Made by a program: the position numbers and the translations under genes. The notes under the pieces were generated by a model. That model worked only from the letters and a program-made list of their open reading frames with translations, was not told the DNA's origin and did no database searches. From Bacteroidales bacterium (GTDB lineage: Bacteria; Bacteroidota; Bacteroidia; Bacteroidales; UBA7960), in assembly GCA_007134525.1 (NCBI GenBank), contig SLKR01000071.1:1-32791 (forward strand): a stretch of 32,791 bases of DNA. The letters are read 5' to 3'. Of the stretch, positions 11,046 through 32,106 are shown one piece after another (position 1 is the first letter of the stretch; every line of letters begins with the position of its first letter).

Positions 11046-11999
11046 TCAGTAAACCTCACTGGCTATCTTGAAAATATTTGCCGATCTGCCCATTGTATAG
11101 AAATGGATGCTCGGAACACCTGCTTCCTTCAGTTCCTTTGCCTGCATTATTGCCCACTCCACTCCTGCCTCGGAAGCTTCATTGTTGTTGCGGCACTTAT
11201 CAATCTCTGAGGAGAGTTCTACCGGTATATCTATGTAAAAACTCCTGGGAAGCAGATTGATGTGCGATTTCATGCTTATAGGTTTTATACCCGGGATAAT
11301 GGGTACATCAATACCCTCATTCCTGCACTTTTCGACGAAACTGAAATAATGCCTGTTGTCATAAAACATCTGTGTTACTATGTATTCACCTCCACTGGCA
11401 ATCTTGTTCTTAAGGATCTTTATATCGGTATCGAAATTTGGTGATTCGGGATGCTTTTCCGGATAACCGGCTATTCCTATTGAGAATTTTGTCGGCGTAG
11501 GATCTGCAAGATCCTCGTCTAGATATCTTCCCTGGTTGAGGTTGTTCACCTGTTCAATCAATTCACTTGCATACCTGTGGCCCCCCTCGGCAGGGATGAA
11601 TGTCTTCAGGGTCTTGTCGGGGTCTCCCCTTAAAACCAGTATGTTGTGTATCCCTAAAAAGTTAAGGTCGATCAGGGCATCTTCAGTTTCCTGACGGTTA
11701 AAGCCTGAACAGATGATGTGGGGTACTACTTCCACATTGTATTTATGCATTATGGCTGCAGATATACCCACCGTGCCCGGGCGTTTTCGTATGGTTCTCT
11801 CCTCAAGAAAGCCATCGGGGCGCTTTTTGTAAACCACCTCCTCCCTGTGATATGTAACATTTATATATGATGGGTCAAACTCCATAAGAGGATTGACCGC
11901 ATCATATATTTCCCGGATATTCTTTCCCTTCAGGGGCGGAAGAAGCTCAAAAGAGAAAAGGGTTTTTTTTGTTTGCCTTAACAGTTCAGCAACTATCAT
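11046..11999 (-). CDS. metF: 5,10-methylenetetrahydrofolate reductase
   Basis: MetF reduces 5,10-methylene-THF to 5-methyl-THF, the methyl donor for MetH encoded just upstream. The protein is 317 residues when started at ATG 11997-11999 (E. coli MetF is 296). It begins MIVAELLRQTKK and reaches the family segment FSFELLPPLKG, whose Glu is the expected catalytic acid. Later family segments are YINVTYH, GISAAIMHKY, NILVLRGDPDK, FSIGIAGYPEKHPES, YIVTQMFYDN and IIPGIKPI. The frame is open 49 codons further upstream, but that part only overlaps the end of metH and has no family similarity. The chosen ATG overlaps the metH TGA as ATGA, a translational coupling arrangement. It is therefore expected to share the SAM-I riboswitch control of metH. 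Confidence 0.96.
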   Translation of the reverse strand: MIVAELLRQTKKTLFSFELLPPLKGKNIREIYDAVNPLMEFDPSYINVTYHREEVVYKKRPDGFLEERTIRKRPGTVGISAAIMHKYNVEVVPHIICSGFNRQETEDALIDLNFLGIHNILVLRGDPDKTLKTFIPAEGGHRYASELIEQVNNLNQGRYLDEDLADPTPTKFSIGIAGYPEKHPESPNFDTDIKILKNKIASGGEYIVTQMFYDNRHYFSFVEKCRNEGIDVPIIPGIKPISMKSHINLLPRSFYIDIPVELSSEIDKCRNNNEASEAGVEWAIMQAKELKEAGVPSIHFYTMGRSANIFKIASEVY

Positions 12000-14900: not shown

Positions 14901-15592
14901 CCGACAGAGACCAGGAAGGCATCAAGGGTCTGCCCGGAGAGCGTCCGGCCGGATGAGTCATTGATGCTGACCGAGATCATAACCGGCACCTCTCTTCCAT
15001 TTCTTTCAAACACATTACTTATTGCAAACAGACAGGCTTTGGCATTCAGGGTGTCAAACACTGTTTCTATAAGCAGCAGGTCGCATCCCCCGTCCAGAAG
15101 GGCTTCTGCCTGAACTGAGTATGCATTCGCAAGATCATCGAAGTTCACCTGCCGCCCTGACGGCTTATCAACTTGTGAAGGCACTGACAGGGATTTGCTG
15201 CCCGGCCCCATGCTGCCTGCCACAAATCGCAACTTGCCGTAGGATGAATATTCATCGGCACACTTTTTGGCGATCATTGCGCCTCTTTTATTTATTTCAT
15301 ATGCGTGGTCAGAAAGCCCATAGCTGGCGAGAGACAGGGGGGCGGAACTGAAAGTGTTGGTCTCTATTATATCGGCACCTGCCGCCAGGTAACTCCTGTG
15401 TATTTCTGCTATTAAACCTTCCCTGGTCAGATTAAGCACATCATTACAGCCCTTCAGTGGGGTGTCGTGCCTTTTGAATAATTCTCCCCTGAAATCATTC
15501 TCCCCGAGTCCGTGTTGCTGAAGCATGGTACCCATGGCCCCGTCAAGGACCATGATACGATTCTCAAGTATGTCAGAGATTTTGTTTTTCAT
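11996..15592 (-). CDS. metH: Cobalamin-dependent methionine synthase
   Basis: Full-length B12-dependent methionine synthase, 1198 residues (E. coli 1227), transferring the methyl group of methyl-THF to homocysteine. Domains in order: homocysteine domain (about 1-325) with zinc ligands Cys242, Cys305 and Cys306 (E. coli 247, 310, 311); pterin domain from INIGERTNV (352-360); cobalamin cap and Rossmann domain with DIHDIGKN (753-760, axial His755); C-terminal activation domain (about 880-1198) with the SAM-binding region around DRGIRPAPGYPACPDH. The activation domain means reactivation by SAM plus a reductant. The frame is open to 15730, but ATG 15590-15592 (MKNKISDILENR) fits the family start. 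The 46-codon extension has no similarity and lies in the riboswitch leader. Co-transcribed with metF. Confidence 0.97.
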   Translation of the reverse strand: MKNKISDILENRIMVLDGAMGTMLQQHGLGENDFRGELFKRHDTPLKGCNDVLNLTREGLIAEIHRSYLAAGADIIETNTFSSAPLSLASYGLSDHAYEINKRGAMIAKKCADEYSSYGKLRFVAGSMGPGSKSLSVPSQVDKPSGRQVNFDDLANAYSVQAEALLDGGCDLLLIETVFDTLNAKACLFAISNVFERNGREVPVMISVSINDSSGRTLSGQTLDAFLVSVGHFPFLSVGINCALGASEIKPFLSQLSEKTPCFVSVHPNAGLPNEEGGYDETPEQMAGVIKEYIHERTANIIGGCCGTTPEHTRLICGLVNGVTPRKPPKADRLTRLSGLDTLSVSRESNFINIGERTNVAGSARFARLIREKDYDAAISVARQQVENGAQIIDINLDDGLLDPVAEMENFTRLLGAEPDIARVPFMPDSSRWDVIETALKNIQGKPVVNSISLKEGEDEFLCKARLIKKSGAAVVVMAFDEKGQATDYGSRIRICERAYVLLTEKAGLPPQDIVFDCNILAIGTGIEDHSGFAAGFIEAVKWIKKNLPHAKTSGGISNLSFAFRGNNRIREALHSVFLYHAVNAGLDMGIVNAGTLPVYDDIEEEFRKRCEDLILDKRKDATERLMAFARIEGIKQTPDGGDIEKQNILPAPERLEEALVRGIADHLEEDIKETLKETPVAIDIIEGPLMRGINRVGGLFSQGKMFLPQVIKSARVMKKAVSILQPLLESQKTAAGRVSDSGTVLLATVKGDIHDIGKNIASLVLSCNSFRIIDLGIMVSRERIVSEAVRQKADIVGLSGLITPSLEEMAGVAAEMEKQGLKVPLLIGGATTSKVHTALKIDPLYSGPVIHVKDASKAVQISAELIRGDGRKRIQSEYKSLYKAIRKDYREKRRSTKPLALEDARKRRFIWEEHSARLKEPSFTGIREIRPDIRTLREYIDWNAFFRQWKVKAADGEATTLREDALELLRIIESSELLEPKGVFGFFRANSENEDVIVKLPDGSHEKIHFLRDCSNKPEGENNLCLSDFIAPGSFGVTDHIGLFALSAGFGAGDAEKEWLSNNDDYSAILLRTIADRLAEAFAEYLHVEVRKKFWAYDPGDRGIRPAPGYPACPDHSEKQTIFNLLEARERTGMQLTENHAMIPAASVCGYYFAHPGSRYFSIGDIGREQLVKYAASKNMEVAEIKKLLSYTLNRKR

Positions 15593-15789
15593 CTCTTGAT
15601 TTTTTGTCAATGAAACACCGTGCCCGCATAAAGGAGGTCCGGTACCATGATTACATTGTCTGCTGCCATGAAAACATTGGATGGTCCGGGCCGGACTTAT
15701 CTGCGCAATGCCGGCCTGGGCATCCGCCATAGGCTGGGGAAAAACGCTGATGAAAAACCGGGTTGTTTTGCAAACATTTGATCAGGTCT
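15593..15789 (-). promoter_or_regulatory. metH leader (expression platform) between SAM aptamer and start codon
   Basis: About 200 transcribed bases separate the riboswitch aptamer from the metH ATG. On the minus strand the stretch has a GC-rich block in which GGCCGG (15711-15716) can pair with CCGGCC (15689-15694), while GTCCG/CGGAC (15684-15696) forms a competing local hairpin. A further CCGGAC copy precedes CCTCCTTT (15630-15637). No hairpin plus T tract was seen, so transcription termination is not evident; control may act on translation or by an unrecognised structure. Confidence 0.4.
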
Positions 15790-16901: not shown

Positions 16902-18173
16902 TTATATTGCCCCGTATATTAGGCCAGAAATTGTAGCCATTATTACCACGAGTATAACGAATACAGTAGTCTTCTTTGTTCCGAGTACGCTGTGTATCAC
17001 CAGCATATTGGGCAATGAAAGTGCCGGGCCGGCGAGTAACAGTGCCAGTGCAGGCCCTTTACCCATGCCTGAGACGATCAGCCCCTGCAATATGGGTATC
17101 TCCGTTAGGGTGGCAAAATACATAAAGGCCCCGAACACCGATGCAAATGCATTGGAGCCAATGCTGTTGCCCCCGACCAGCGACTCAACCCAGACGGAGG
17201 GTATAAGGCCTTCACCTGTTGCTGTTCCTAAAAGCAAACCGGCTATCAGAACCCCTGCTCCCAGAAGAGGTAAAATCTGTTTTGTAAAATCCCAGGTTTC
17301 AAATATCCATTCCCTGGCCTCACCCTTCTGCCTGAGGCTTATTATTACAAGTGCCACCACTGCAAGCAAAAAGGGCACTTCAGGAGGATCAAACAAAATT
17401 GCTGCAGCAACAACGGTTAATGCTCCAATGGCAACATGCTGCCATCTCATTTCAAGAATATATACAAGGGAAAGTATCAGCAAGATCCCAAAGAAAGAGG
17501 TAATATGCCATTTGTCAACTCCGATGAATTTATCTTCCCCCCAGTTGGCAAAAATCAATATGAAAACCAGAACGAAGAAATGAAAGGCGGTTTGCCATAA
17601 CGGGCGGCCATCTTCGGGCGCTTGCATATTCATCTGTTCTTCAGTGCGCGCCTTTTCTTCTTTCCGGAATATAAAGGACATTATCAGCCCTATCACTACG
17701 CTGAACACCACAGCACCTATAATCCTTGCCAGTCCGAGCTCCCATCCGAGTATCCTTGCCGTAAGGATTATGGCCAGAATATTTATTGCGGGGCCGGAGT
17801 ATAGGAAGGCAATGGCAGGACCCAGGCCTGCTCCCCTTTTGTGAATGCTTGAAAAAAGCGGAAGAACAGTACAGGAACAAACTGCCAGTATAGTGCCTGA
17901 TACCGAAGCCACAAGATATGCCTTCCATTTTTTTGCCCTGGCACCAAAATACTTTATTACCGCTGCCTGGCTTATAAAAACTGCAATAACCCCTGCAATG
18001 AAGAAAGCCGGAATAAGACACAGAATTACATGTTCCCTGGCATAATACCTCGCAAGGCTTAATGCTTCATAAACGGCATTCTCAAAGCGTGCCTGCCCCA
18101 GAGGCATGAAGTATACCGCAATGAAAATTATAAGCAGCCAGAATAGTATCTTAAGCTCTTTTCTTGTTTCCAT
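16902..18173 (-). CDS. ArsP/DUF318-type permease
   Basis: A 423-residue inner-membrane permease with about 10 hydrophobic segments. The family signature is clear: VCSCTVLPLFSSIHKRGAGLGPAIAF (Cys99, Cys101 in the CSC motif) followed by LYSGPAINILAI, and a second inverted half with FGAFMYFATLTEIPILQGL and LLAGPALSLPNML. Some members (ArsP) export trivalent organoarsenicals; most are unassigned. It lies between the ArsG/CcdA-like gene (19-base gap) and the small thioredoxin gene (45-base gap). The substrate could be an organoarsenical, another metalloid or a thiol compound. Confidence 0.9.
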   Translation of the reverse strand: METRKELKILFWLLIIFIAVYFMPLGQARFENAVYEALSLARYYAREHVILCLIPAFFIAGVIAVFISQAAVIKYFGARAKKWKAYLVASVSGTILAVCSCTVLPLFSSIHKRGAGLGPAIAFLYSGPAINILAIILTARILGWELGLARIIGAVVFSVVIGLIMSFIFRKEEKARTEEQMNMQAPEDGRPLWQTAFHFFVLVFILIFANWGEDKFIGVDKWHITSFFGILLILSLVYILEMRWQHVAIGALTVVAAAILFDPPEVPFLLAVVALVIISLRQKGEAREWIFETWDFTKQILPLLGAGVLIAGLLLGTATGEGLIPSVWVESLVGGNSIGSNAFASVFGAFMYFATLTEIPILQGLIVSGMGKGPALALLLAGPALSLPNMLVIHSVLGTKKTTVFVILVVIMATISGLIYGAI

Positions 18174-18192
18174 AATACTTATAAGTCAGGCA

Positions 18193-18897
18193 TCAGGTAT
18201 AGAACATCAGAGAGTAATAAACACCAACAACAATAAAAATTATTGCAACAGTGCGACGAAACCACTTTTCAAACGACTGGATCCGGTTATAAAATGATCC
18301 CACTCCCGAAACACTGTATGCAAGCAGATAGGCTACCAAAATAACCGGCAGGCCGGTTGCAATGGCAAATACAAACGGTAGTATTAGCCCTTCGGGGCTT
18401 GATATTGTCATTGGGATCAATATTCCAAAATAGAGAACACCACTGTAGGGGCAAAACGCAAGGGCAAAAAGAAATCCAATCAAAAGGGCACTGAGCAACC
18501 CCATTGATCCTGTTTTTTCGGCAAGCTTGCTCAGAAAGCCTCCACTGTTTCCTGTAAGATTTATCCTTATAATGTTAAGCATTAATATCCCGAATACAAT
18601 CAGCAGCGGACCAAGAAACTTCTCACCGTAGTTTTGGAAAAAATATGCTATCTCAAAACTTGAAGCCCCGAAATATATAATTACCCCAATCAGCGTATAA
18701 GCGATAGCACGGCCCAGAGTGTACAAGAGCCCGCTGAAAAATACTTTTTTTTTGTTTGTGATATCCCTTGATATGTAAGCTGTTGCCGTTATGTTTGTAG
18801 CCAGGGGGCATGGGCTTATTGCGGTCATAAGGCCAAGTAAAAAGGCCGTCAGAGCCGGGAAGGATACTGCGTCCAACAATGATTGAAGAAATTCCAT
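18193..18897 (-). CDS. ArsG-family/CcdA-DsbD-like membrane protein
   Basis: A 234-residue protein with about six membrane helices, similar to the transmembrane domain of DsbD/CcdA. Two conserved motifs carry the paired redox cysteines: AISPCPLATNIT (Cys30) and FALAFCPYSGVLYFG (Cys149). Close homologues are annotated as aromatic aminobenzylarsenical efflux permease ArsG. The cysteine pair also suits the CcdA mechanism of carrying electrons across the membrane. It is the first gene of the operon, about 22 bases from the predicted transcript start, followed by the permease, thioredoxin and ArsF-like genes. No ArsR regulator gene is next to it. Confidence 0.88.
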   Translation of the reverse strand: MEFLQSLLDAVSFPALTAFLLGLMTAISPCPLATNITATAYISRDITNKKKVFFSGLLYTLGRAIAYTLIGVIIYFGASSFEIAYFFQNYGEKFLGPLLIVFGILMLNIIRINLTGNSGGFLSKLAEKTGSMGLLSALLIGFLFALAFCPYSGVLYFGILIPMTISSPEGLILPFVFAIATGLPVILVAYLLAYSVSGVGSFYNRIQSFEKWFRRTVAIIFIVVGVYYSLMFYT

Positions 18898-19676: not shown

Positions 19677-20813
19677 ATGAAAAGGTTAGTATTATTATTG
19701 ACAGTTATATTTGTGTCGGGCTGCAGCGTATTTACCCCCTTACAGAGGAGCAAATTCCTAACAGTTCATCACCTTACAGAAACAAGGAATTATGATGATG
19801 CCAAAATTGTAATTGAAGAAATGATTGAGAATGGAGAGTTTGCTGAGCTCCCAAGAACCTGGTATCTGAGGGGGGTCCTGGCCCAGACAGCTTACCGTGA
19901 TGACAAGCAGAACCTGTATTCTGACCAGCTCTATGTTATCTATGAGTCTTTCGAGCGTCATCATGAACTATCGGGCAGTGACAGGGCAAAAAACCAGATT
20001 AAGCCCAAGTATATTCAGCTGGCAAATGACCTGCAAAGGCTTGGTGAGAGGCAGTTCAGAAACGGAAACTACAGTCAGTCACTCAAGGCATTTGAACATG
20101 CGCTGGCCATAACCCGAATGCAGACACTTGCTATCGAACAAGATAAAAGCCTTGTTTATAATGCCGGCCTGGCAGCCTTTGAAAGCGAAGAGTGGGAAAA
20201 AGCAGAAAAGCATTTGGGTAAACTGCACAAACACGGATACTCAACCAACGCGACCCATTTGCTTTACAAAACAATGCTTGCGCAGGAAGATAAAGATGCT
20301 GCCAGGAGAGTCCTTATGGAAGGTGTAGGCAAGTACGAAGACAACGAGGACCTTATAATGCTGCTTGTTGACTTTTTGGCTGATAATGGAGATGAAAATG
20401 CTGCCCTGGATGTACTTAGTGAAGCTATCTATGATGACCCTGAGAACCATAACCTCCATTATACCAAAGGCCTTATTTACCAGAGAACCGGTATGTTCAA
20501 TGATGCTGTTCTCTCCTACTTCGATGCCCATGAAAAGGATCCTGAACATCTGATGACCTATGTCAACATCGCTACATGTTATTACAATATAGGAGTGGAA
20601 ATTGATGAGGAAGCAAGAACAATGACAAACCAGGCAGAGGTAAATGAGATGAGGATAAAATCAGAGGCTGCCTATGAATCTGCAGTTACATGGCTTGACA
20701 AGGTGAATGAGAAAGAACCCGGTGAACAGGAAGTTTTGGATGTTATATATGATCTCTACAGCCGTCTGCGTTTGACTGACAAGGTAAGGGATACTGAAAG
20801 CAATTTAAATTAG
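19677..20813 (+). CDS. TPR-repeat lipoprotein
   Basis: A 378-residue lipoprotein. The signal peptide ends in the lipobox VSGC, so Cys16 is lipidated. The rest is alpha-helical with tetratricopeptide units, for example the repeat starting ALAITRMQTLAIEQDKSLVYNAGLAAFESEEWEKAEKHL (about 147-185), and later NHNLHYTKGLIYQRTGMFNDAVLSYFDAHEKDP and MTYVNIATCYYNIGVE units near 270-320. TPR lipoproteins act as protein-protein scaffolds in the envelope. Its partner cannot be told. It is convergent with the DUF3078 gene, with 7 bases between the stops. Confidence 0.88.
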   Translation: MKRLVLLLTVIFVSGCSVFTPLQRSKFLTVHHLTETRNYDDAKIVIEEMIENGEFAELPRTWYLRGVLAQTAYRDDKQNLYSDQLYVIYESFERHHELSGSDRAKNQIKPKYIQLANDLQRLGERQFRNGNYSQSLKAFEHALAITRMQTLAIEQDKSLVYNAGLAAFESEEWEKAEKHLGKLHKHGYSTNATHLLYKTMLAQEDKDAARRVLMEGVGKYEDNEDLIMLLVDFLADNGDENAALDVLSEAIYDDPENHNLHYTKGLIYQRTGMFNDAVLSYFDAHEKDPEHLMTYVNIATCYYNIGVEIDEEARTMTNQAEVNEMRIKSEAAYESAVTWLDKVNEKEPGEQEVLDVIYDLYSRLRLTDKVRDTESNLN

Positions 20814-20829
20814 GCTTCTGCTAAAGCCT
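20812..20829. terminator. Hairpin spanning the two convergent stop codons
   Basis: AGGCTT (20812-20817) pairs with AAGCCT (20824-20829) around a 6-base loop. Both TAG stop codons (20811-20813 plus, 20821-20823 minus) fall in or at the hairpin. On the minus strand it is followed by the AT-rich TAATTTAAATT; on the plus strand there is no T tract. Weak terminator for the minus-strand lipid operon at best. Confidence 0.4.
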
Positions 20830-22728
20830 CAGCGACAAAGTGATTCCAAGGAACTGATTTATCTGTGGCCGCGGGACCTTCTTCTCACTGCCATCAGGCA
20901 GCAAAACAGGATCACCATGGCTGTCAGTAACCGGGAAACGCACATTGTCATTGTAGATGAGGTGAAAGTTAAAACGTACAGTGAAATTCCAGTGGAGTTG
21001 CTGTTCAAGGTTCATCTCCCAGTCAACATCTACGTTCTGTGGCTTTTTCAGGTAATTGGAAAATAACCTTACCGAATTAGATATCTCAAGCCCGTTCAAC
21101 ACCTCTGCCTTGTGTTTTATGACCATCTGCCCACCCATTTCCTGCCGGGATCGTTTTCCCTCCTCGATACCGTGTGCCCTTTGGTTTATGTTCACTGTGT
21201 CCAGGACAAATGTATTCCTGTAAGAAAGGATGGAAAAGTTAATTGTTGTATTTCTGAATGGCTCATATTCCGCACCCATACCCAGTGTAATTGAACCCGG
21301 GTTAAGGAATTTAGATACAGGAACTGAATCATTGGGGTATTTAAAACCCTCAGCCAGCTGGGTCTTCATGTACAATACCGAACTAAAATCCAGCTTATCT
21401 ACAAACTCCTTGTTAAACTGTGAGTTAAGTTCAATAATATCAGTGCTGATCCTGCTGCCGTGTTCTTTTGTCCTGGTGGAGCCAAAACGGAGACGGGTGC
21501 TGGTGGTCCAGTGGGTCTTGCTCTCCTTGTTATTGTATCTTGCCCTGGCATTAATGTCAAACATAAAAGACAGCGAACTTTCTCCACCCCTGGCCCAGTA
21601 AGATAAGTAGTTTTGATTAAGCGAGAATGAATTGGATATCCCGGTATCCCAAAAAGCCGGAACTTCTTCCAGCGGACTTATACTCAAAAGTGACCTTTCA
21701 GGTGCGGCTGTTGTGATCGGAATGCCATCTGCTGGTTTTTTCTCGAGTCTTTCAACAAAAATATCGTCTTCCAGGCTCAGAGTTATCTCATGCTTGGCGG
21801 GGTTGCCCATCCAGATTGTTATGGAGTCGCCCTCGGCATTTTTTACCCAGTACCTGTATGAGGGGTCATCACCCACTGTAAGCCAGAAGGGGGTTCGCAC
21901 ACCATTTATGTCATGGAAATGAACGAGAATGGAGTCACGCTCATAGGTATGAGAAAGTAATGTTTCTACAGACTGCCTAAGGGAATCAGGCATACTGTTG
22001 TCGGGGACAATATAGAATGGTGAGGGTTGGTCAGCCATGATTACCTGTCTGGTATCTGAGATAACTATCCCGGTGCTGTCGGGTAAAAAACTTAGTGACC
22101 TGCTGCTTCCGGGCGGTAACAGGGGTGGTTGCACATCTTCTTCTTCAAACCGGTGGATCTCAATGTTCTTTGCCTGAAGATATGCGTAGTCAATGACCAC
22201 TTCTGTAATGGTGTCACTTACCTGGAGAACTGAGTCAAGTACCGCCTGGACATTTAGGGTTGCCGCTCCGTATGGATACTCCAGGGTGTCGTCAACTGCA
22301 TGCATGATAACGGTTTGCCTTTCGATGAAGGGATCCTTTTCCAGGACTACCGTGTCAACTATAAAGGATCCCTCATCGAGCCAGCGAAGTGGCAGGGTAT
22401 CGCGGCTTACAATATATCCCTGGCGCAGCTCTATGGAATCGTAGGGAAACTCCAGCAGCCTTATCCTGACGCTGTCAAATGGCTCCCTGAAGTTGTCTAT
22501 TAGCCTTTTGATCGACACTCTGAGGGTGTCATCTTCGTTCCTGAAAAGGTCCTCCAGGTCGATCAGCCTTATCAGGTAATCTGATGCATCAGCCGGAGAA
22601 AGCTCAGCTTCTGGGGCGAACAGAGTATCTGTTGCGGCTACCGGGGGTCTGTCCTGAGCGGCTGTATTATTATTAATAATTAACAGGGAAAGAAACAGAA
22701 ATGGCAGTAAAAACGAATACCGGAACAT
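20821..22728 (-). CDS. DUF3078 outer-membrane-associated protein
   Basis: A 635-residue exported protein with a signal peptide (about 1-24). The N-terminal half (about 25-350) is acidic, rich in aspartate and beta-prone, with repeated DTL/DSI motifs, and I recognise no domain there. The C-terminal part (about 355-635) is the DUF3078 domain: FSLNQNYLSYWARGGESSLSF, ARARYNNKESKTHW, LRFGSTRTKEHGSRISTD, then alternating beta strands ending in an aromatic-free LSLRL. DUF3078 is a Bacteroidota family thought to form an outer-membrane beta structure. The gene begins 39 bases after the UbiA-like gene with no promoter-like box between, so it is probably the last gene of the lipid operon. A role as outer-membrane partner for the lipid is a guess. 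Confidence 0.87.
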   Translation of the reverse strand: MFRYSFLLPFLFLSLLIINNNTAAQDRPPVAATDTLFAPEAELSPADASDYLIRLIDLEDLFRNEDDTLRVSIKRLIDNFREPFDSVRIRLLEFPYDSIELRQGYIVSRDTLPLRWLDEGSFIVDTVVLEKDPFIERQTVIMHAVDDTLEYPYGAATLNVQAVLDSVLQVSDTITEVVIDYAYLQAKNIEIHRFEEEDVQPPLLPPGSSRSLSFLPDSTGIVISDTRQVIMADQPSPFYIVPDNSMPDSLRQSVETLLSHTYERDSILVHFHDINGVRTPFWLTVGDDPSYRYWVKNAEGDSITIWMGNPAKHEITLSLEDDIFVERLEKKPADGIPITTAAPERSLLSISPLEEVPAFWDTGISNSFSLNQNYLSYWARGGESSLSFMFDINARARYNNKESKTHWTTSTRLRFGSTRTKEHGSRISTDIIELNSQFNKEFVDKLDFSSVLYMKTQLAEGFKYPNDSVPVSKFLNPGSITLGMGAEYEPFRNTTINFSILSYRNTFVLDTVNINQRAHGIEEGKRSRQEMGGQMVIKHKAEVLNGLEISNSVRLFSNYLKKPQNVDVDWEMNLEQQLHWNFTVRFNFHLIYNDNVRFPVTDSHGDPVLLPDGSEKKVPRPQINQFLGITLSLRL

Positions 22729-22767: not shown

Positions 22768-23709
22768 TTAACAAAGATATATGAGAGTTATTGTTTCCCC
22801 CCGGAATATGAATAAAAAATTCTGAAGGGCATCAGTGTTAATGGATGCGACCAGGAAAGCAAGCAGCCCAATGAGCGCCCCCATTTTTTGCAGCCGGCTT
22901 ATTTTCCTGAAATCCTGCTGTCCGGGATCGGCAAACAAAGTTAAGAGCAGTGCGTATAGTACAATAGTACTTCCAGTAATCATCAAAATAAGATATGAAC
23001 GAGGGTTTATTATTGGTGTAAAGACCGGTATAATCAGAAATAATATTGCCATAAAATTAAAGAAAGCAGAAACCATAGCTGCTCTCCTTTTACCCAGCCT
23101 TATGGCCAGGGTCTTTACGCCTTGCTGGAAGTCTCCCCTGATATCTTCACAGCCTTTGATGATTTCACGGGCCATCAGCAGCGAAAAAGTGGCCAGAAAG
23201 AAGTAATAGATAAAAACAGGGATATTGGTGCCATTCACTATAGCCCCATATATCAGGCCGGCAGAAAAGGAAGTACTAACAATAATATTGCCCAAAAACC
23301 CGCTTCTTTTGCCATAAGAGGCATATAACCAGCCAGTAAATCCGAAAAACAGCGCAATTATGACATTGATAAACGAAAGGTTAAGAACAATGCTGTGAAC
23401 TACCGATATCAAAATTGCAGAACCCAAAGTAAACGCATACAGAATCTTCGCCTCATTAATGGTTATGTCTCCCCTTGGAATCGGACGTTTTGGCCTGTTT
23501 ACCCTGTCTATTTTATAATCATATATGTCATTGATTATCATTGCTGAGCTGACAATCAAAAAATACATAAGGCAAGCCAGTGCAATATTGGCTGTCAGGA
23601 CAAAAGAGGCTGTGTCTGTTCGGGTGTTCAATATTCCTACAATAATCGTCAAACAACCCATCAGTCCGTTAACGGGGCGCATGATTCCTATACCCGCATT
23701 TATATTCAT
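22768..23709 (-). CDS. UbiA-family prenyltransferase, digeranylgeranylglyceryl phosphate synthase-like
   Basis: A 313-residue integral membrane prenyltransferase with about eight or nine helices. Both Mg-diphosphate motifs are intact: NDIYDYKID (Asn60, Asp61, Asp64, Asp68) followed by RVNRPKRPIPRG, and EDIRGD (Asp189, Asp193) followed by QQGVKTLAIRLG. The RPKRPIPRG segment and the short N-terminus fit the archaeal DGGGP synthase branch, which adds a second prenyl chain to prenylglyceryl phosphate. Its place 20 bases after the GGGPS gene, which makes that substrate, supports this over menaquinone, heme or chlorophyll prenyltransferases. Chain length cannot be read from the sequence. Start ATG at 23707-23709; MRPVNG nine codons later is an alternative. 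Confidence 0.88.
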   Translation of the reverse strand: MNINAGIGIMRPVNGLMGCLTIIVGILNTRTDTASFVLTANIALACLMYFLIVSSAMIINDIYDYKIDRVNRPKRPIPRGDITINEAKILYAFTLGSAILISVVHSIVLNLSFINVIIALFFGFTGWLYASYGKRSGFLGNIIVSTSFSAGLIYGAIVNGTNIPVFIYYFFLATFSLLMAREIIKGCEDIRGDFQQGVKTLAIRLGKRRAAMVSAFFNFMAILFLIIPVFTPIINPRSYLILMITGSTIVLYALLLTLFADPGQQDFRKISRLQKMGALIGLLAFLVASINTDALQNFLFIFRGETITLIYLC

Positions 23710-23729: not shown

Positions 23730-24536
23730 TTATTTTTTTCTGTAGTCTTTTTTCTGATTCTTCCCTGCAGACTTGATCTCCCGTATGATAGGCTTCAGCG
23801 AGCTTCCCTTGTCTTTTAATACATTTTTCTCTATAAAGGTTCCCATAACTATAATGTCTGCTCCTGCTTCAACCAGCAACCTTGCGTCTTCTGCGGAGTT
23901 TATGCCCCCTCCGGCAATTATTGGCACAGACAAAACCTTCGAGGCCAGGGATATGTGCGAAGCAGGTATTCTGTTACCGTCAGATCCAGCTTCAAGATAC
24001 ACCATTTTAAATCCGTACATCTCAGCGGCTAAAGCATATGCCGCGGTCAGCTTCGGGTTGTTCCTGGGCAGGAGTTTTGCATTTCCGACCCAGCCCGCCA
24101 TAGCTCCGGGTTCTATTATCAGATAAGCCATGGAGAAATATTCTATCCCGGAAGACTTGACAGGGTAAGAGACCAGTGCCTGTTGGCCCACAATGAAGTA
24201 GGGGTCTTTTGAGTTCAGCAATGACATGAAAAAAACCGCATCTGCCCTGGGCGAAAGGTTAGTCATGCCACCTGGAAATATTATAACAGGAAGTCCGGTT
24301 CTTGATTTAATCCTTTCAATGGTACCGGAAACAAACTCCTGGTCGGATATTGTACTGCCGCCTACTAGAATTGCATCGCTACCTGCCTGCTCGCAATATT
24401 CTGCCATTATACCTGCCTCTTCCGGATCCTGCTTGTGTGGATCCGGGTCTATCAGGGAAAAGTGCAGGGCACCTTCGGCGTTGATTCTGCTTAACAGATA
24501 AGAATATACGGTTTTGTTGCCTGATTTGTCAAACAT
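23730..24536 (-). CDS. Geranylgeranylglyceryl (heptaprenylglyceryl) phosphate synthase
   Basis: A 268-residue soluble TIM-barrel enzyme of the PcrB/GGGPS family, which forms the first ether bond between a prenyl diphosphate and sn-glycerol-1-phosphate. Family positions are intact: FSLIDPD (Asp30, Asp32) for diphosphate and Mg, LVGGS (57-61), FPGG (87-90), the glycerophosphate loop YLEAGSDG (170-177), IAGGGI (207-212) and VMGTFIE (240-246). The length is greater than Bacillus PcrB (about 230) and fits the group of bacterial and archaeal enzymes found in Bacteroidota. It is placed between the reductase (12-base gap) and UbiA (20-base gap) genes, the order of a dedicated ether-lipid pathway. Start ATG at 24534-24536. 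Confidence 0.94.
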   Translation of the reverse strand: MFDKSGNKTVYSYLLSRINAEGALHFSLIDPDPHKQDPEEAGIMAEYCEQAGSDAILVGGSTISDQEFVSGTIERIKSRTGLPVIIFPGGMTNLSPRADAVFFMSLLNSKDPYFIVGQQALVSYPVKSSGIEYFSMAYLIIEPGAMAGWVGNAKLLPRNNPKLTAAYALAAEMYGFKMVYLEAGSDGNRIPASHISLASKVLSVPIIAGGGINSAEDARLLVEAGADIIVMGTFIEKNVLKDKGSSLKPIIREIKSAGKNQKKDYRKK

Positions 24537-24548
24537 AGTTTTACTTTT

Positions 24549-25955
24549 TTATACTTGCCTTTCTGACCTGAGCTTCTCTGTCAGGAAGTTTATCTTTTTA
24601 TATTGTTCACCTACTTTTTGCTTCCAGCTTTCGAACTCTTCAATGTCATTTGATCCCGGAAAGTTTCGGTATAGTGTGATCACCTGGTTCATGTGTATCC
24701 TTAGGTAGTTCAGGTTAAGCAAGAAGCCCGGACGGGAAAACCCCCTGAAAGCCTTTAATGCCATTTTGCCCAATGGTGGTTTTATATTGCCTGTTTTGGC
24801 TATGTAAAGAACTTCTTCGGCATTCAGAAGGTTTTTATTTAACCCGAAACTGATATCTGCATTTGTCAAAGACTGCAATACCCTTCTTAGCAGCTCCAAA
24901 CCTGCAAACTCTGAACCAAAGCTCTTCATGACAGCTGAATTATACCCCCAAAGGGCGTTCAGCGATACATCCCCCTTGCCTATTGCTTTTACTGCAGTCA
25001 TAGCTGCATGGTATCCTGCCCTCATTGAGGGGTCAATTCCTCCTCCGTGAAGCGGGTTTACATGCAGCGCGGCATCTCCGACAAACATAATACCACTATC
25101 TGCGCATGACCATAGTGGCCGCCTGACCGGCACCACCCCTCCTCCGGAAGAGAGTATTTCAAATTCTTTCGTATTGACAAACTCATTAAACACACTCTTT
25201 TTGTATAGCTCCCTAACCCTGTCCCTATAATCCATATAAACGCCCAGACCGATGTTCAGTGAATGCTCATTTTTCGGGAAGTACCATATATATCCTCCGG
25301 GAGCCCTCTTATGGTCAAGGATGATGGTTATATAATCCGGATCCTTAACTTTTTGTGCTTTCGTCGGGAAGTCAACTATCTCCCGGTAACACAGAACTGC
25401 ATCCTCTTTTTTGAAATTATTCTCAATTATATCGCTTTTAATGTTTTTGCGCAGTACCGAGTATAGGCCGCTTGCATCAATCACTATCTTTGCACCCAGT
25501 TCGGCTGTGTCTCCATTGCTTAATCTGACTTTTACACCTGCAACAGAACCGTTGTGACAGATCAGGTCCAGGGCCTTCGTATCATGCATGAACCGGCTCA
25601 CACCCGCGTCCAGAGCTTCTTTTAGCAGGCGCCGGCCAAATAGTGACCTGTTAATAATATACCCTGTAAATTTTGGGTCGATCAGCACCAATGGTCTTCT
25701 CATATCGGGAGGGTATAGCTTTACCCCCTTTATATGGCACGACAGTTCCTCGCCCCGGGGGTGTGCTATCCCGAGCAGGTCAAATATCTCAGACCCCACT
25801 GCATCACCGCAAACCTTGGCAGGATCCAGTGTCTCTGGCTTCCTGTCTATAAGACATACCTTTAGCCCGTTCTCTGCAGCAAATCTTGCTGCAACAGCCC
25901 CGCCTGTGCCGGCTCCTACAACAATGACGTCGAACTCCTTCTTAAATCCGTCCAT
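24549..25955 (-). CDS. Geranylgeranyl reductase family FAD-dependent protein
   Basis: A 468-residue flavoprotein. The N-terminal Rossmann motif is VVGAGTGGAVAARFAAENG (Gly14, Gly16, Gly19) with the acidic LIDRKPE. The GGR-family cysteine segment KVCGDAVG (Cys49), the substrate-cavity motif GYIWYFPKNE (Tyr222, Trp224, Phe226, Pro227), and the second FAD motif FVGDAALHVNPLHGGGI (Gly293-Asp294) are all present. These enzymes hydrogenate the double bonds of prenyl chains, as in archaeol synthesis. The C-terminal part (about 370-468) is divergent. In this operon the likely substrate is the GGGPS/UbiA ether-lipid product. An electron donor (ferredoxin or quinol) is not encoded nearby. The family also contains unrelated halogenase- and dehydrogenase-type members, so substrate is inferred from context. 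Confidence 0.88.
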   Translation of the reverse strand: MDGFKKEFDVIVVGAGTGGAVAARFAAENGLKVCLIDRKPETLDPAKVCGDAVGSEIFDLLGIAHPRGEELSCHIKGVKLYPPDMRRPLVLIDPKFTGYIINRSLFGRRLLKEALDAGVSRFMHDTKALDLICHNGSVAGVKVRLSNGDTAELGAKIVIDASGLYSVLRKNIKSDIIENNFKKEDAVLCYREIVDFPTKAQKVKDPDYITIILDHKRAPGGYIWYFPKNEHSLNIGLGVYMDYRDRVRELYKKSVFNEFVNTKEFEILSSGGGVVPVRRPLWSCADSGIMFVGDAALHVNPLHGGGIDPSMRAGYHAAMTAVKAIGKGDVSLNALWGYNSAVMKSFGSEFAGLELLRRVLQSLTNADISFGLNKNLLNAEEVLYIAKTGNIKPPLGKMALKAFRGFSRPGFLLNLNYLRIHMNQVITLYRNFPGSNDIEEFESWKQKVGEQYKKINFLTEKLRSERQV

Positions 25956-25984: not shown

Positions 25985-26728
25985 CTAATTCCTGGTAAGG
26001 TTTCTTATGCTGAAAACCTCATCCGGAATGCCGGTGTCAAACTCTGTTTCCTGGAATATCATCTGTGTGCTGTGATCCCTTTTCAGGTTGGCAATATGTA
26101 TTTCCCTGGCAAACCAATAATTGTCTTTATTATCAAACACGTATTCTATCACTTTATACTCCTGCCCCCTCCGGTCGTATGTCTTCATAATCTCAGGGTA
26201 ATAATGGTCTGTGTTCACATAGGCAACAATCCGTGAATAATCGCTCCTGACACCCTGCTCCGGAGTAAGCTCAAGAACATAGTGGCTTAGGGTTGTTTCT
26301 ATAAGCTTCGCTGAAAAATCTTCCGTGTATTTGTGTATTTCCAGGTCTTCGTATGAAAGGTCAGTCCCCGCAAATGACTGACTTTTCATGTGCGAGGCGA
26401 TTCTCCTCTCCCTTCCGTAGGCCGGCATGTAGAGATACAGAATATCATCGGGCAGTGACAAAAGCGCTATCCCTGCCTCACTTGCAGGGGCTGTGAAGCG
26501 GAACAGGTGTTTATCTGTCCCTTTCTGCCATACCTGTGCCTCCCTTCTCCTCTGATTGCCGTCCCTGTCGGCAAGTATAATGACAACAACACTTTTCTGA
26601 TCTTCACAGGCAAACAGCACATCACCCATACGGTTCAGTATCCCTTCTGCATCTGCTGCAGCAAGAATGTTACCATAGTGGGATATTAATATTGCTGTAA
26701 ACAGTTTAATGAAAAATGCGGTTCTCAT
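25985..26728 (-). CDS. LolA-like outer membrane lipoprotein-sorting protein (PF17131)
   Basis: A 247-residue periplasmic protein with a signal peptide (about 1-23). The body has the PF17131 LolA-like signature: FRFTAPASEAGIALLSLPDDILYLYMPAYGRERRI (about 78-112), then SHMKSQSFAGTDLSYEDLE. These proteins have the unclosed beta-barrel of LolA that holds acyl chains. Its ATG overlaps the TGA of the RND gene as ATGA, and PF17131 genes are commonly paired with MMPL/HpnN-type RND genes. Together they are likely a transporter plus carrier for a hydrophobic lipid. Here the downstream neighbours are ether-lipid enzymes, so that lipid may be the cargo. Confidence 0.88.
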   Translation of the reverse strand: MRTAFFIKLFTAILISHYGNILAAADAEGILNRMGDVLFACEDQKSVVVIILADRDGNQRRREAQVWQKGTDKHLFRFTAPASEAGIALLSLPDDILYLYMPAYGRERRIASHMKSQSFAGTDLSYEDLEIHKYTEDFSAKLIETTLSHYVLELTPEQGVRSDYSRIVAYVNTDHYYPEIMKTYDRRGQEYKVIEYVFDNKDNYWFAREIHIANLKRDHSTQMIFQETEFDTGIPDEVFSIRNLTRN

Positions 26729-28986
26729 AATGTTTTTGTGTTGTTGTTCTGTTTCAGCAATCCCTGCATTTTATTTCGACCCGCCAGCAACAAGGGCATC
26801 AACGTAAGTGTGGACATTCCAGCAACCAGCATGGTGAATGCCAGTAAAATACCCAGCCTTTGGAGTGGAACCAGGTTCGAGAATACCAGCATGGCAACCC
26901 CTGTTATGATGGATGACATACTTATAAGAATTGACTTTCCACTGGTACGTATTGTCCTGACAAGACTATCCCTTTCGTCAAGCTGGAGCTTCCGGCCTTC
27001 TGAATACCTGCTGATAAAGTGGATCGAAAAGTCAATACCTATACCTATTGTTACTCCTCCGGCAAGTACCGTTGCCACGTCAATAGGAACACCAGTAATA
27101 CCCATAATGCCAAACAGTGCTATAAGGGTTATAACGATTGGGATAACGGCAAGCAACCCGGTTTTTAAAGATCCCATAAGCAGGCTTGTTAATATTATTA
27201 CAAATATAATGGCAAATACCAGGCTGTAAACCTGGCTTTCGACAATATTATCGTCAAGATGTTTTAACAGGATTGGTACCCCGGTAACTGCCATCCGGCA
27301 ATGCTCTGAGGAATGTTCTTCCACAAATGCACTAAAATTACTTTCAATTTCCCGGAGTACATGCAGCTTTTTGGATGTAACAAAGCCATGTATAATACCT
27401 TCCTGACGGTCGTAACTTACCAGCTGTTCCATTGTGTCCTGACCGTCAAGAAGAAACCAGAGCTGCGATATTTTTTCCTTTTCCTCTGGTATAACCCTAC
27501 CTTCGCCCATTACATGATTAAGCTGTTTAATGATGTCTGCTGCTGACTGGCTGTAAGGTATATAGCTGAACCCCTGCATATAATCCTGAGTTTCACTTAT
27601 CTTGTTGAGAACCTCAGGGCTTTGCATATCCCCTCTGAAAGTTACATAGAGGGGGCTGCTGCCATAGAATTTCTCTGAAAGTATTTTCTCTCCCTGCGTA
27701 ATAATACTTCCTTCCTTGAAGTAGCCGGTAACATCCGCATTGCGTGTTATGCGTGTGACCCCAAATATGCCCGCCAGGATAATGACCGTCCAGGAGATTA
27801 TGAGAAGATGCCGGTGATTGCATGAAACTGACAAAAGCCATTCCGGGATTTTATCAAATATATTTTCACCTGTTTTTGCCGGGCTGCTCTCCTTTTTTTT
27901 CATTACAACCATTACTGCAGGTAAAAAAACTATTGTCAGGATCAATGAAAAGAGTATCCCGGCTATTGAGAACATTGCAAACTCCTTTATCATGATCAGC
28001 CTGGAGCCGGCAACAAACGAGAAGAACCCGAGTATAGTAGTTGCTGATGCAAGTATAACAGGGACGGCAATATACCTTACAGCCCGCTGCATTGCTTTGT
28101 AAGGATTGACTCGTTGCTCCACAATTACGGCATTGATTACATGTATTGCATAGTCGTTTCCCAGCGCGAGCAGAATAATCGGTATTGCGTTTGTCAGCAG
28201 GGTAAGCTTGTATCCGGTCAGGGAGATAAGGCCCATTACCCATATCGTTGCAACAATAACCGTTAGCATTGGCAGGAAAACCCCGCGAAAGTTGCGGAAT
28301 CCTGCATATAAAACAAGACATATCAGTAAAAATGCCACAGGCCCTATTGCGAGTATGTCAGTGACAATAATCCGGTTAAGCTCCATAAGTGTTACCGGTG
28401 TGCCTCCGTAGAAGAAGTTCCCTTCAAATGGAATGCTTTCAACTTTCCGGCGTATTGCTTCTGTCACTTCCACCCTGTTCACATCCGGTACTATCCTTGA
28501 TATCAAAAGGCTTGCCGTTAAATCTTCAGAAACCAGTTTCCCCCTCAATGCATTGTTCGACAAAACATATGACCTGAGGGAGTCAAGAGCTTCCCGGCTA
28601 TTGGGCATGTTGAATTCATCAACCAGGGGGCCGATCTCTATACCATATTGAGTTGCCCTGATATCCATTGTGCTTGTAAGGCTGGTTACATTGCCAACTC
28701 CAGGCACTGAGAGTATGCTGTCGGTAGCCTGCCTTACAACCTCCAGCATCTCACTGGTAAATACATCTTCACCCTCAACCCCTACAACAACCACTTCGTT
28801 TCCTCCGAAGGTCTCTCCGATCTGATTGAAAAGTCTTACTGAGTCATCCTCTTCCATCAGATAACTCATTACATCGGCATTTACCTCAAGATCTTTCAGG
28901 AAATAGGCCATTATGATCGTAATGGCCGTTACCATGGCAATGATATAATACCTGAATCTTATAACTCTTTCAGAGAAGTTATTCAT
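26725..28986 (-). CDS. MMPL/RND-family lipid transporter (HpnN-like)
   Basis: A 753-residue inner-membrane RND protein with two repeats of one helix, a large periplasmic loop and five helices (TM1 near 11-30; TM2-6 about 205-365; TM7 near 390; TM8-12 about 580-735). Each helix 4 holds the expected proton-relay Asp motif: ALGNDYAIHVINA (Asp278) and GIGIDFSIHFISRY (Asp652). This half-size RND type, without a tripartite pump partner, includes the hopanoid transporter HpnN and mycobacterial MmpL lipid exporters. Coupled by 4-bp overlap to the LolA-like carrier. The 117 bases upstream hold a small hairpin over the preceding stop but no good promoter. Confidence 0.92.
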   Translation of the reverse strand: MNNFSERVIRFRYYIIAMVTAITIIMAYFLKDLEVNADVMSYLMEEDDSVRLFNQIGETFGGNEVVVVGVEGEDVFTSEMLEVVRQATDSILSVPGVGNVTSLTSTMDIRATQYGIEIGPLVDEFNMPNSREALDSLRSYVLSNNALRGKLVSEDLTASLLISRIVPDVNRVEVTEAIRRKVESIPFEGNFFYGGTPVTLMELNRIIVTDILAIGPVAFLLICLVLYAGFRNFRGVFLPMLTVIVATIWVMGLISLTGYKLTLLTNAIPIILLALGNDYAIHVINAVIVEQRVNPYKAMQRAVRYIAVPVILASATTILGFFSFVAGSRLIMIKEFAMFSIAGILFSLILTIVFLPAVMVVMKKKESSPAKTGENIFDKIPEWLLSVSCNHRHLLIISWTVIILAGIFGVTRITRNADVTGYFKEGSIITQGEKILSEKFYGSSPLYVTFRGDMQSPEVLNKISETQDYMQGFSYIPYSQSAADIIKQLNHVMGEGRVIPEEKEKISQLWFLLDGQDTMEQLVSYDRQEGIIHGFVTSKKLHVLREIESNFSAFVEEHSSEHCRMAVTGVPILLKHLDDNIVESQVYSLVFAIIFVIILTSLLMGSLKTGLLAVIPIVITLIALFGIMGITGVPIDVATVLAGGVTIGIGIDFSIHFISRYSEGRKLQLDERDSLVRTIRTSGKSILISMSSIITGVAMLVFSNLVPLQRLGILLAFTMLVAGMSTLTLMPLLLAGRNKMQGLLKQNNNTKTL

Positions 28987-29103
28987 TGGCTGGTTTGTTC
29001 GGTAACTTGCAGAACTGTTCTGGATGTAAAATTAATGTTTTTATCCATGATATTGTCTAGTCTGCAATCACAGTCCAACCTGCTTTTTGGATGCCCTCCC
29101 GGG

Positions 29104-30159
29104 TCATCCTCTTTTCTGTGCAGGGGATGTTCCCTGGCTGGGATCATTTTTAAGACGCTGAGGCAGAAAGTCCTTTGGGTAGTTGGTAACATATTCCCTG
29201 CCAAACAGCCGGTTGTGGATCTGGGTGTTTTTATATACATCCCAGTCAAACTTGCCTTTTTTCCTGAAGTATAATGTTATAACCGATGATGTCATAACAA
29301 TGAAGGTGGAGTATAATATGGCAAGCCATAACATCTGGCTCTGTACCGGTTCATTGAAACTAAGCAATATGATTGCAAATGAAACCGGACCGTTCTGAAT
29401 TCCTGTTTCAAGGGATATGGCCCTCTGAAAAAGAGGATACATTCCCAGCAGCCTTGAAAACCAGTATCCGAAAAAGAATCCGGCCATTCCAATTCCTATT
29501 GTGGCGAGATACACCTGTATGGGTGTTTGCAAAAACAGTCCTCCGTGACGGACAAATGCAGTCAGTATAAGATAGAGAATTACCATAATTGCAACAAATC
29601 CTGCAGTGTCTTCGGCTGTTTTTGCCCATCCTGGTGACTTTTTCCTGAGGATCATGCCCATTATAACAGGCAGCAGAACCAGAACAAGGGAGCTGATAAT
29701 ATTGCCTGTTGGTATTACAAAGTCAGATTCTGCACCCGCAGCACGCATGGTTTCAGATATCTGGCTTGTAAATCTTACAGTGTAAAGGTTCAGCAGTATT
29801 GGCATCATAAACAGTGCAACCACCGTTGAGGCCGTTGTCATTGAAATGCTCAGTGCAACCGAGCCCCTTGAAAAGTATGCAAACATATTTGAGGTTGTCC
29901 CTCCGGGCAGGCAGCCTATTAGTATCAGGGCAATTGCAAAGGCAGGATCCAGGCCGAGTAAGATGGAAAGGCCCAGTGCAAGTAGCGGCATTAGCCCGAA
30001 CTGTGACAAAAAGCCAATGAAAACACCCCTTGGACTTCTTGCAACAGCTTTAAAATCATCTACTGTCAGACTCGATCCCATTCCGAGCATGATCACAAAG
30101 ATCATTATGGCAAGAAGGATCTGGTCATGAGCATATAAAAGTTGAGAAGGAAACTCCAT
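29104..30159 (-). CDS. Bile acid:sodium symporter (BASS) family transporter
   Basis: A 351-residue inner-membrane protein with about nine or ten helices of the BASS fold. Signatures: GCLPGGTTSNMFAYFSRGSVALSISMTT (about 82-109) and the sodium-site motif ETGIQNGPVS (Glu251, Gln255). A hydrophilic C-terminal tail of about 45 residues follows the last helix. Bacterial BASS proteins use Na+ to import organic anions, including bile acids, pyruvate, pantoate and sulfated compounds. It starts 3 bases after the ligase stop, so the two are one transcriptional unit. The substrate is not readable; an acid later activated by the ligase is one possibility. Confidence 0.9.
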   Translation of the reverse strand: MEFPSQLLYAHDQILLAIMIFVIMLGMGSSLTVDDFKAVARSPRGVFIGFLSQFGLMPLLALGLSILLGLDPAFAIALILIGCLPGGTTSNMFAYFSRGSVALSISMTTASTVVALFMMPILLNLYTVRFTSQISETMRAAGAESDFVIPTGNIISSLVLVLLPVIMGMILRKKSPGWAKTAEDTAGFVAIMVILYLILTAFVRHGGLFLQTPIQVYLATIGIGMAGFFFGYWFSRLLGMYPLFQRAISLETGIQNGPVSFAIILLSFNEPVQSQMLWLAILYSTFIVMTSSVITLYFRKKGKFDWDVYKNTQIHNRLFGREYVTNYPKDFLPQRLKNDPSQGTSPAQKRG

Positions 30160-30162
30160 AGG

Positions 30163-32106
30163 TTAAATCTTTTTTTTGGTTCCGTTTTGGAAAAGGTCCT
30201 CTATCGCATCACTGAACTCTTCTGTAACAACATGGCGCTTGACCTTAAACAGGTTGGTAAGCTCATGTCCAACCCTGAAACTCCTGTCAAGTACGCGAAA
30301 GTCCCTGATTAGCTCATAGCCCTTGAACCCGCTCGATGCAGAGATCAGTCTGCGTATTTCATGGCGGATAATCCTTTTTGCTTCACTGTTTTGAGCCAGT
30401 TCACTTATTGAAAAAGCTGGCGTTCCGTTATGCGTGAAAGCCTCCTGTTTGGGTACCACCAGAACCCCGAGTGACTTCTGGTCCTGTCCGACCACCATGC
30501 ACTGGTCGATGTACTGGCTTTGCTGAAGCCTCATCTCAATGGGTTCGGGCTCTACGTTCTCTCCACTTGACAGTACAATGGTTGCCTTTGAACGCCCAAG
30601 TATCTTTAAACAGTTATTGTGTGTGATCATGCCAAGGTCGCCGGTACGGAACCATCCGTCCTCGAAAGCATTCCTTGTCAGCTCTTCCTCCCTGTAGTAT
30701 CCTGCCATTACCTGAGGTCCCCGTACCTGGATCTCACCTCTCATTGAGCGTCCGCCATCGGGAAGATCTTTGTTCGGGAACAGTACCTTGCGGGTTTCCA
30801 GGTCGACAATCCTTACATCCGTATCACGTATTGGGGGTCCTACGGTTCCAACTATTAAGTTGAGTTTGGGCCGCACTGAAATTACCGGTGAGGTTTCTGT
30901 CAGGCCATATCCTTCCAGTACCGGGATACCGACATTGTTAAAAAACCTGTCTATGTGAATCGGCAGGGCCCCTCCCCCTGAAATTGTAGCAGCCAAAGAT
31001 CCTCCTGCGCTCAGGCGGATTCGTTCAAGCACAGCGGCATTAAAGAATCCAAACCATGGAAGTACAATAAGCCACCTTACCAGATGAAAAGGATAAAGCA
31101 CTGCTGACCCCCACCAACTTTTCTTTTTGACCTGAAGGTTTTTGTTTTTTAAAAATGCCTCTGACACCCTGTACTGCTTTGAAAGGAAGTAGGCTATATG
31201 GAATAAGACCTGCCTGACCGGGTGAGATGCCTTTACCCCCTTGATGATCTTCTCGTGTATCTTTTCCCAGAGTCTGGGGGCAGATGCCATGAACGTAGGT
31301 TCAACATTTATCATATCATCGCCCAGGGTCTGAATACCTGAGTAGTAAGTGCATCCACCAAAGCTTATTGTGTACATCTCAATTACCCTCTCAAATACAT
31401 GCCAGATTGGTAAAACCGACAGAATCCTGTCGTTGGGATTATGTATTCCAGGCAGATTTCTGGTCTGGCTGATAATGTTTTCATGGGTCAGCATTACCCC
31501 TTTGGGTCTGCCTGTAGTACCTGATGTATATATGAGGGTGAAAAGGTCGTCAGGCCGTATACCCTTTATGCGGTCAAATACACGTCTGTCACCACTGTTT
31601 CGCAGGCTGGAGCCGGTATTCAGAATATCCTTGAGCTTCAGCACTCCCTCCCTGACACGTGCATTATGATCGAGTACAATAATGTGCTGAAGGTCGGGCA
31701 GCCTTTCCTTAATACGGAGTAATCTGTTTTGCAGCACCTCTGTTTCAACAAAGCATACTTTTATTCCTGCATGGCCTACAATATACTCCATCTCACTGTC
31801 TGACACGTCCCTTCCCCTGGGTACATCAGCAGCACCACAAAACTGAATTGCATAGTCTGTCAGGATCCATTCAAAACGGTTGTCGCCGAACAGACCTACA
31901 TGATCTCTTGCCTTAACACCAAGTTCTATCAGCCCTGAGGCCAGATCCAGCCCCTGCTCATAGAGCTCGCGAAAAGAAACAGGCTTCCATTTGAGGGATT
32001 TTTCGCGTGTGGCAAAAGCCGGAAGGGAATCAAAGCGTTCTGCAGCTTTCTGGTATAAGTCGGCAAGGTTGTCAGCTGCAATCCTTTCATTTTTAGGTTT
32101 TTGCAT
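30163..32106 (-). CDS. Long-chain acyl-CoA synthetase-like AMP-dependent ligase
   Basis: A 647-residue AMP-binding ligase of the long-chain fatty acid CoA ligase type. Motifs: the P-loop LIYTSGTTGRPKGVML (191-206), SAPRLWEKI (275-283), GYGLTETSP (399-407), GWFRTGDLG (about 490), a KILGRSK hinge, and a C-terminal LTNLFKVKRH with the catalytic Lys region. The inserted basic and aromatic segment around 300-360 is typical of bacterial FadD15-like proteins that associate with membranes. It makes acyl-AMP and then acyl-CoA from a carboxylic acid. First gene of the operon after the promoter near 32180. In a lipid operon it could activate a fatty or isoprenoid acid; the substrate is not shown. Confidence 0.93.
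   Translation of the reverse strand: MQKPKNERIAADNLADLYQKAAERFDSLPAFATREKSLKWKPVSFRELYEQGLDLASGLIELGVKARDHVGLFGDNRFEWILTDYAIQFCGAADVPRGRDVSDSEMEYIVGHAGIKVCFVETEVLQNRLLRIKERLPDLQHIIVLDHNARVREGVLKLKDILNTGSSLRNSGDRRVFDRIKGIRPDDLFTLIYTSGTTGRPKGVMLTHENIISQTRNLPGIHNPNDRILSVLPIWHVFERVIEMYTISFGGCTYYSGIQTLGDDMINVEPTFMASAPRLWEKIHEKIIKGVKASHPVRQVLFHIAYFLSKQYRVSEAFLKNKNLQVKKKSWWGSAVLYPFHLVRWLIVLPWFGFFNAAVLERIRLSAGGSLAATISGGGALPIHIDRFFNNVGIPVLEGYGLTETSPVISVRPKLNLIVGTVGPPIRDTDVRIVDLETRKVLFPNKDLPDGGRSMRGEIQVRGPQVMAGYYREEELTRNAFEDGWFRTGDLGMITHNNCLKILGRSKATIVLSSGENVEPEPIEMRLQQSQYIDQCMVVGQDQKSLGVLVVPKQEAFTHNGTPAFSISELAQNSEAKRIIRHEIRRLISASSGFKGYELIRDFRVLDRSFRVGHELTNLFKVKRHVVTEEFSDAIEDLFQNGTKKKI

Follow-up and report, generated by a model that had tools for sequence, protein, structure and literature searches.

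How three genes for enzymes of archaeal-type ether-lipid synthesis come to stand in a Bacteroidales genome, and which of the four genes lying upstream of them on the same strand belong with them, are the questions raised by the locus described here. The stretch of DNA analysed (hereafter the window) is one whole contig, 32.8 kb in length, of a Bacteroidales MAG of 2.69 Mb and 96% completeness; this genome (G000) was compared with relatives in its family, in particular G158, G159, G160 and G162, within a family sample of 47 genomes, all of the genomes compared being MAGs. A sequence-only reading had joined all seven genes into one system for making, reducing and exporting an isoprenoid ether lipid, and did not see what is the larger finding, namely the Lokiarchaeal origin of the three enzymes, which all three gene trees place inside Lokiarchaeia. 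No earlier report of this transfer was found; indeed, the open-access papers searched, whose silence is not proof, hold no account either of an Asgard-to-Bacteroidales transfer or of the link with an RND/LolA pair described below.

Gene content of the locus

Open reading frames and family matches agree in placing the seven genes on the minus strand, at the coordinates originally given for them. The first two encode a long-chain acyl-CoA ligase (30163-32106; PF00501, 5e-76) and a BASS symporter (29104-30159; PF01758, 3e-39), both judged to lie outside the module; they are followed by an RND transporter of the HAE3/MMPL type (26725-28986; MMPL, 3e-42; TIGR00921 HAE3, 8e-78) and a LolA-like periplasmic carrier (25985-26728; PF17131, 9e-47; structure 3bk5, 2e-27), each of them a cassette-linked paralog, and by three enzymes of Lokiarchaeal type which constitute the cassette: the geranylgeranyl reductase GGR (24549-25955; NF041080, 5e-116; 4opu, 2e-108), the geranylgeranylglyceryl phosphate synthase GGGPS (23730-24536; PF01884, 1.6e-52; 4mm1, 1e-58) and the digeranylgeranylglyceryl phosphate synthase DGGGPS, a member of the UbiA family (22768-23709; PF01040, 1e-33; 6m31, 5e-39). 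The spacing also proved to be as described, with a 3-base gap between ligase and BASS (30160-30162), a 4-base overlap of RND and LolA (26725-26728) and a 117-base gap between BASS and RND (28987-29103); promoter and terminator scans around the last of these gave nothing convincing.

Downstream of the cassette, on the minus strand, lies the gene of a DUF3078 protein (20821-22728), an ancestral host gene outside the module, which adjoins DGGGPS in both G000 and G159. Together with a TPR gene it forms a convergent pair (19677-22728) kept across the family and unrelated to the cassette, being found in most family genomes whether the cassette is present or absent. A clean empty insertion site was sought in cassette-free relatives and none was found, because these do not share a conserved gene content upstream of DUF3078. 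Elsewhere in the window, the MTHFR gene (metF) overlaps that of a full-length B12-dependent methionine synthase (metH; 11046-15730), and a DsbD-like transmembrane protein adjoins an ArsP-type permease (16902-18897).

Origin of the GGR-GGGPS-DGGGPS cassette

In a scan covering approximately 85,000 species genomes, the top matches of the window GGGPS were one Bacteroidales contig (82% identity) and then Lokiarchaeota (72% to 52%), the identity to other Bacteroidota in the same scan being 31-40%; over the comparisons made, this GGGPS is 63-72% identical to Lokiarchaeia and 29-43% identical to other bacteria. The same, Lokiarchaeal, pattern of similarity holds for GGR and DGGGPS. Trees containing 30 loci drawn from a survey of 195 Asgard genomes nest, for all three genes, the Bacteroidales cassette sequences inside Lokiarchaeia, beside TEKIR_8. 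In the GGGPS tree the cassette sequences and Lokiarchaeia share a starred group, the cassette standing beside TEKIR_8 (97), and the ordinary Bacteroidales GGGPS are placed far off in a separate starred group; in the GGR tree both the cassette clade and its union with TEKIR_8 are supported at 100/99, and in the DGGGPS tree the cassette joins TEKIR_8 with a support of 99/97. Order and orientation (GGR>GGGPS>DGGGPS) are common to 24 of the 30 Asgard loci.

That the TEKIR_8 contig might be a mis-binned bacterial one was considered and ruled out: its GC content is 30%, its tetranucleotide distance is 0.13 to its own MAG versus 0.59 to the Bacteroidales genome, and it carries a DUF998 neighbour, as do other Lokiarchaeal loci. 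Going by its name, TEKIR_8 presumably derives from sediment. G159, for its part, appears to be the MAG CSSed10_347, CSSed10 being named for the sediment of Cock Soda Lake, from which Lokiarchaeota MAGs have also been obtained (PMC6704655).

The cassette is almost certainly the product of an interdomain transfer from Lokiarchaea into Bacteroidales, in which the ancestor of one subclade of the genus would have acquired it whole from a Lokiarchaeon. Window and Lokiarchaeal clusters share the same genes, order, orientation and short spacers, with 50-72% protein identity; unlike its counterparts, the window cassette resides in a Gram-negative bacterium, has the composition of its host and is bordered by RND/LolA upstream and DUF3078 downstream. 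GGGPS and DGGGPS have been reported in 12 of 12 FCB phyla surveyed, mostly without a G1P dehydrogenase (G1PDH), and transfer mainly from archaea to bacteria was inferred (PMC6431249). The FCB pathway described for Ca. Cloacimonetes (PMC7852524) resembles the present one in that GGGPS and DGGGPS are co-localised, GGR is present and neither CarS nor G1PDH was found; it differs in that the window GGGPS, according to its tree, is not of the FCB/Bacteroidota lineage and represents a separate Lokiarchaeal acquisition, which included GGR.

Distribution and selection

Lokiarchaeal-type GGR occurs in exactly five of the 47 family genomes (G000, G158, G159, G160 and G162), two further genomes showing only weak matches of 35 residues; GGGPS of the same type is found in four of these five carriers. 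Two further species of the genus, and most other genera of the family, have the ordinary bacterial GGGPS, and some 15 species of the genus have no GGGPS; the Lokiarchaeal-type cassette may have replaced the ordinary enzyme in one subclade. In the tree of ligase and BASS, used as a proxy for the species tree, the five carriers fall within one nine-species clade (98/97), a distribution for which a single gain and two losses could account. The three enzyme genes are under purifying selection, with dN/dS values of approximately 0.07-0.14 where synonymous sites are not saturated; among the carriers these sites are near saturation. At the G160 locus (contig C295, 8447-13174) RND, GGR and DGGGPS are intact, and LolA and GGGPS are missing, spacers of about 100 bases standing in their place; a GGGPS was not found elsewhere in this MAG, where DGGGPS is present without it.

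The RND/LolA pair and its link to the cassette

The RND protein had been called HpnN-like. With the hopanoid transporter HpnN it shares the RND superfamily and a proposed lipid cargo, but it scores far below both curated HpnN cut-offs (106 versus 752 bits and 67 versus 1100 bits); its best NCBIfam model is TIGR00921 (HAE3), matched at 262 bits, below the subfamily cut-off of 352, and on these scores the protein is a general HAE3/MMPL one. The standard exporter of the genus is encoded as TetR-RND-LolA-DUF1302 at a conserved site with SIR2, SpoU, PNPOx and PfkB neighbours, DUF1302 being found beside the canonical copy in G032 and, by gene cluster, in G000 and other relatives. In G000 this operon, syntenic across the genus, lies on another contig (C76, 8713-13667). 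The window RND and LolA are second copies, forming clades of their own (100/100 for each) on long stems, apart from the canonical copies.

All four members found of the cassette-linked RND clade (100/100) lie directly upstream of the cassette: the order is RND-LolA-GGR-GGGPS-DGGGPS in G000 and G158 and, spread over two contigs, in G159 also; that of G160 is RND-GGR-DGGGPS. This RND is present in four of the five cassette genomes and in none of the 42 others (hypergeometric probability 2.8e-5, uncorrected for relatedness). The fifth, G162, has a gene for an outer-membrane barrel upstream of GGR and no RND/LolA directly upstream, so that the cassette does not require the pair beside it. The proposed tie between RND/LolA and ether-lipid genes stands, therefore, within this lineage; it does not extend across Bacteroidota, RND, LolA or GGR being found within 6 kb at none of 92 other GGGPS loci (41 of which had a flank of at least 6 kb).

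As to the cargo, the AmeABCD system, which comprises an HAE3 RND, a LolA-superfamily protein (DUF1329) and DUF1302, has been linked to the tolerance of apolar isoprenoids, namely monoterpenes (PMC6394551), and this makes an isoprenoid cargo credible for exporters of this type. The likeness lies in the combination of an HAE3-type RND with a LolA-superfamily periplasmic protein, and extends to DUF1302 in the canonical copy of the genus; unlike AmeABCD, the window copy lacks an adjacent DUF1302 gene and is tied to genes for lipid synthesis. The duplicated pair may carry the ether lipid towards the outer membrane, and we consider such an export step plausible, at somewhat less than an even chance.

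It is also conceivable, though less likely than not, that the pair is a mere neighbour, that is, a duplicated general exporter of hydrophobic compounds which came to lie upstream of the transferred cassette and was co-inherited with it from a shared ancestor. The carriers all belong to one subclade, which reduces the linkage to effectively one or two events, many relatives keep a canonical RND/LolA with no GGGPS nearby, and the arrangement in G162 agrees with this account; yet the block was retained in G000, G158 and G159 despite near-saturated synonymous sites and differing surroundings (two of them have DUF3078, the third has genes for a 4Fe-4S protein and an aminotransferase), G160, with two genes missing, still has RND next to GGR, and the cassette-linked RND and LolA clades have long stem branches.

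Predicted product and gaps in the pathway

The best solved relatives of the three enzymes are archaeal lipid enzymes (the group of 4opu and 3atr for GGR, 4mm1 for GGGPS, 6m31 for DGGGPS); in the carriers that were aligned, G160 included, the catalytic motifs are preserved, and the Asp-rich motifs of DGGGPS are conserved. From family membership and these motifs we infer that GGGPS would join geranylgeranyl diphosphate, for which the genome encodes two prenyl synthases (PF00348), to glycerol phosphate, that DGGGPS would attach the second chain and that GGR would saturate the chains, giving an archaeol-type ether lipid, which is probably the product of the cassette. Bacterial GGGPS and DGGGPS have been shown to make ether lipids in E. 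coli (PMC7852524).

Neither CarS nor G1PDH was found in the genome (a MAG 96% complete), the matches to PF13685 being partial. Two candidates for G1PDH were rejected: the best PF13685 match in G000 is an iron alcohol dehydrogenase, and that in G158 is a full-length Fe-ADH, read from its sequence as a glycerol dehydrogenase. Both gaps have been reported in Ca. Cloacimonetes, and bacterial CdsA can stand in for CarS (PMC7852524). Since CarS was not found, CdsA and bacterial head-group enzymes would complete the lipid; since no G1P dehydrogenase was found, either G3P or imported G1P may provide the backbone. Among eight Asgard genomes searched, a strong full-length PF13685 match was obtained in one, the Helarchaeote, in agreement with the lack of G1PDH reported in Lokiarchaeota (PMC7852524).

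The gaps in the pathway, the many substrates of the UbiA family and the state of G160, where GGR and DGGGPS, present without GGGPS, may act on another prenylated substrate, would all suit a different reading, in which the enzymes serve some other prenylated product, such as a quinone, a pigment or a prenylglycerol, rather than the making of a membrane ether lipid. We regard this as unlikely, because each of the three can be matched with archaeal lipid enzymes along the greater part of its sequence and has its catalytic motifs preserved, and because the three genes were transferred, and in most carriers kept, as a set.

The ligase/BASS pair and the integrity of the contig

Ligase and BASS form a tight two-gene unit, present in most species of the genus and found in approximately 18 genomes, mostly cassette-free, in which the genes downstream of the unit vary; identity to the window copies is 66-83% for the ligase and 76-95% for BASS (91-95% within the subclade). 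That these two genes belong to one seven-gene make, reduce and export operon is suggested by the window, where all seven share a strand and the gaps are short, and by G159 and G160, where the unit likewise precedes RND, at a distance of 3-4.5 kb, but is very improbable: two opposite-strand genes (one DUF5694) part BASS from RND in G159, the closest relative, a nitroreductase and two M14 peptidase genes intervene in G160, and in G158 the unit lies on a separate contig with an opposite-strand neighbour. The independence of the pair from GGGPS, an outcome named beforehand as telling against its membership, is thus what the neighbourhoods show; they largely refute the seven-gene operon, and the pair is a bystander, to be dropped from the module.

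The composition of the cassette itself is that of the host (44.6% GC, versus 30% in the donor group; tetranucleotide distance 0.18 to the host versus 0.52 to TEKIR_8), which indicates that enough time has passed since the transfer for the cassette to adapt to its host. That Lokiarchaeal DNA entered this contig through mis-binning or chimeric assembly, an idea prompted by the genome being a MAG and by both groups living in sediments, is a practically negligible possibility given this bacterial composition, the host genes on both flanks, the recurrence of the LolA-GGR and DGGGPS-DUF3078 junctions in the separate MAG G159, and the presence of the cassette, with divergent sequences, in five MAGs.

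Biological significance

The best explanation of the locus, and as a whole a moderately probable one, is that a cassette acquired from Lokiarchaea makes an archaeol-type lipid which the duplicated RND/LolA pair may move, ligase and BASS being bystanders. Discussions of the archaeal-type lipid genes of FCB bacteria usually treat them as ancient, either as a remnant of LUCA or as the result of an old transfer. The present genes, which as a set cover the attachment of the chains and their saturation, were transferred at a later date and from a source that can be traced, the Asgard archaea, which are the closest group to eukaryotes; the recipient was a Gram-negative bacterium, and selection has maintained the set in several species. 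Archaeal lipid genes can therefore be acquired as a set by a bacterial lineage and persist there, an observation that bears directly on mixed-membrane models of the origin of eukaryotes, and the linked transporter pair makes the sorting of archaeal lipids to the outer membrane testable. The full picture, in which enzymes derived from Asgard archaea would provide a diderm with saturated archaeol lipids and a dedicated RND/LolA pair would place these in its outer membrane, is a tentative and rather doubtful one; if true, it would represent a natural mixed archaeal/bacterial cell envelope whose origin can be traced.
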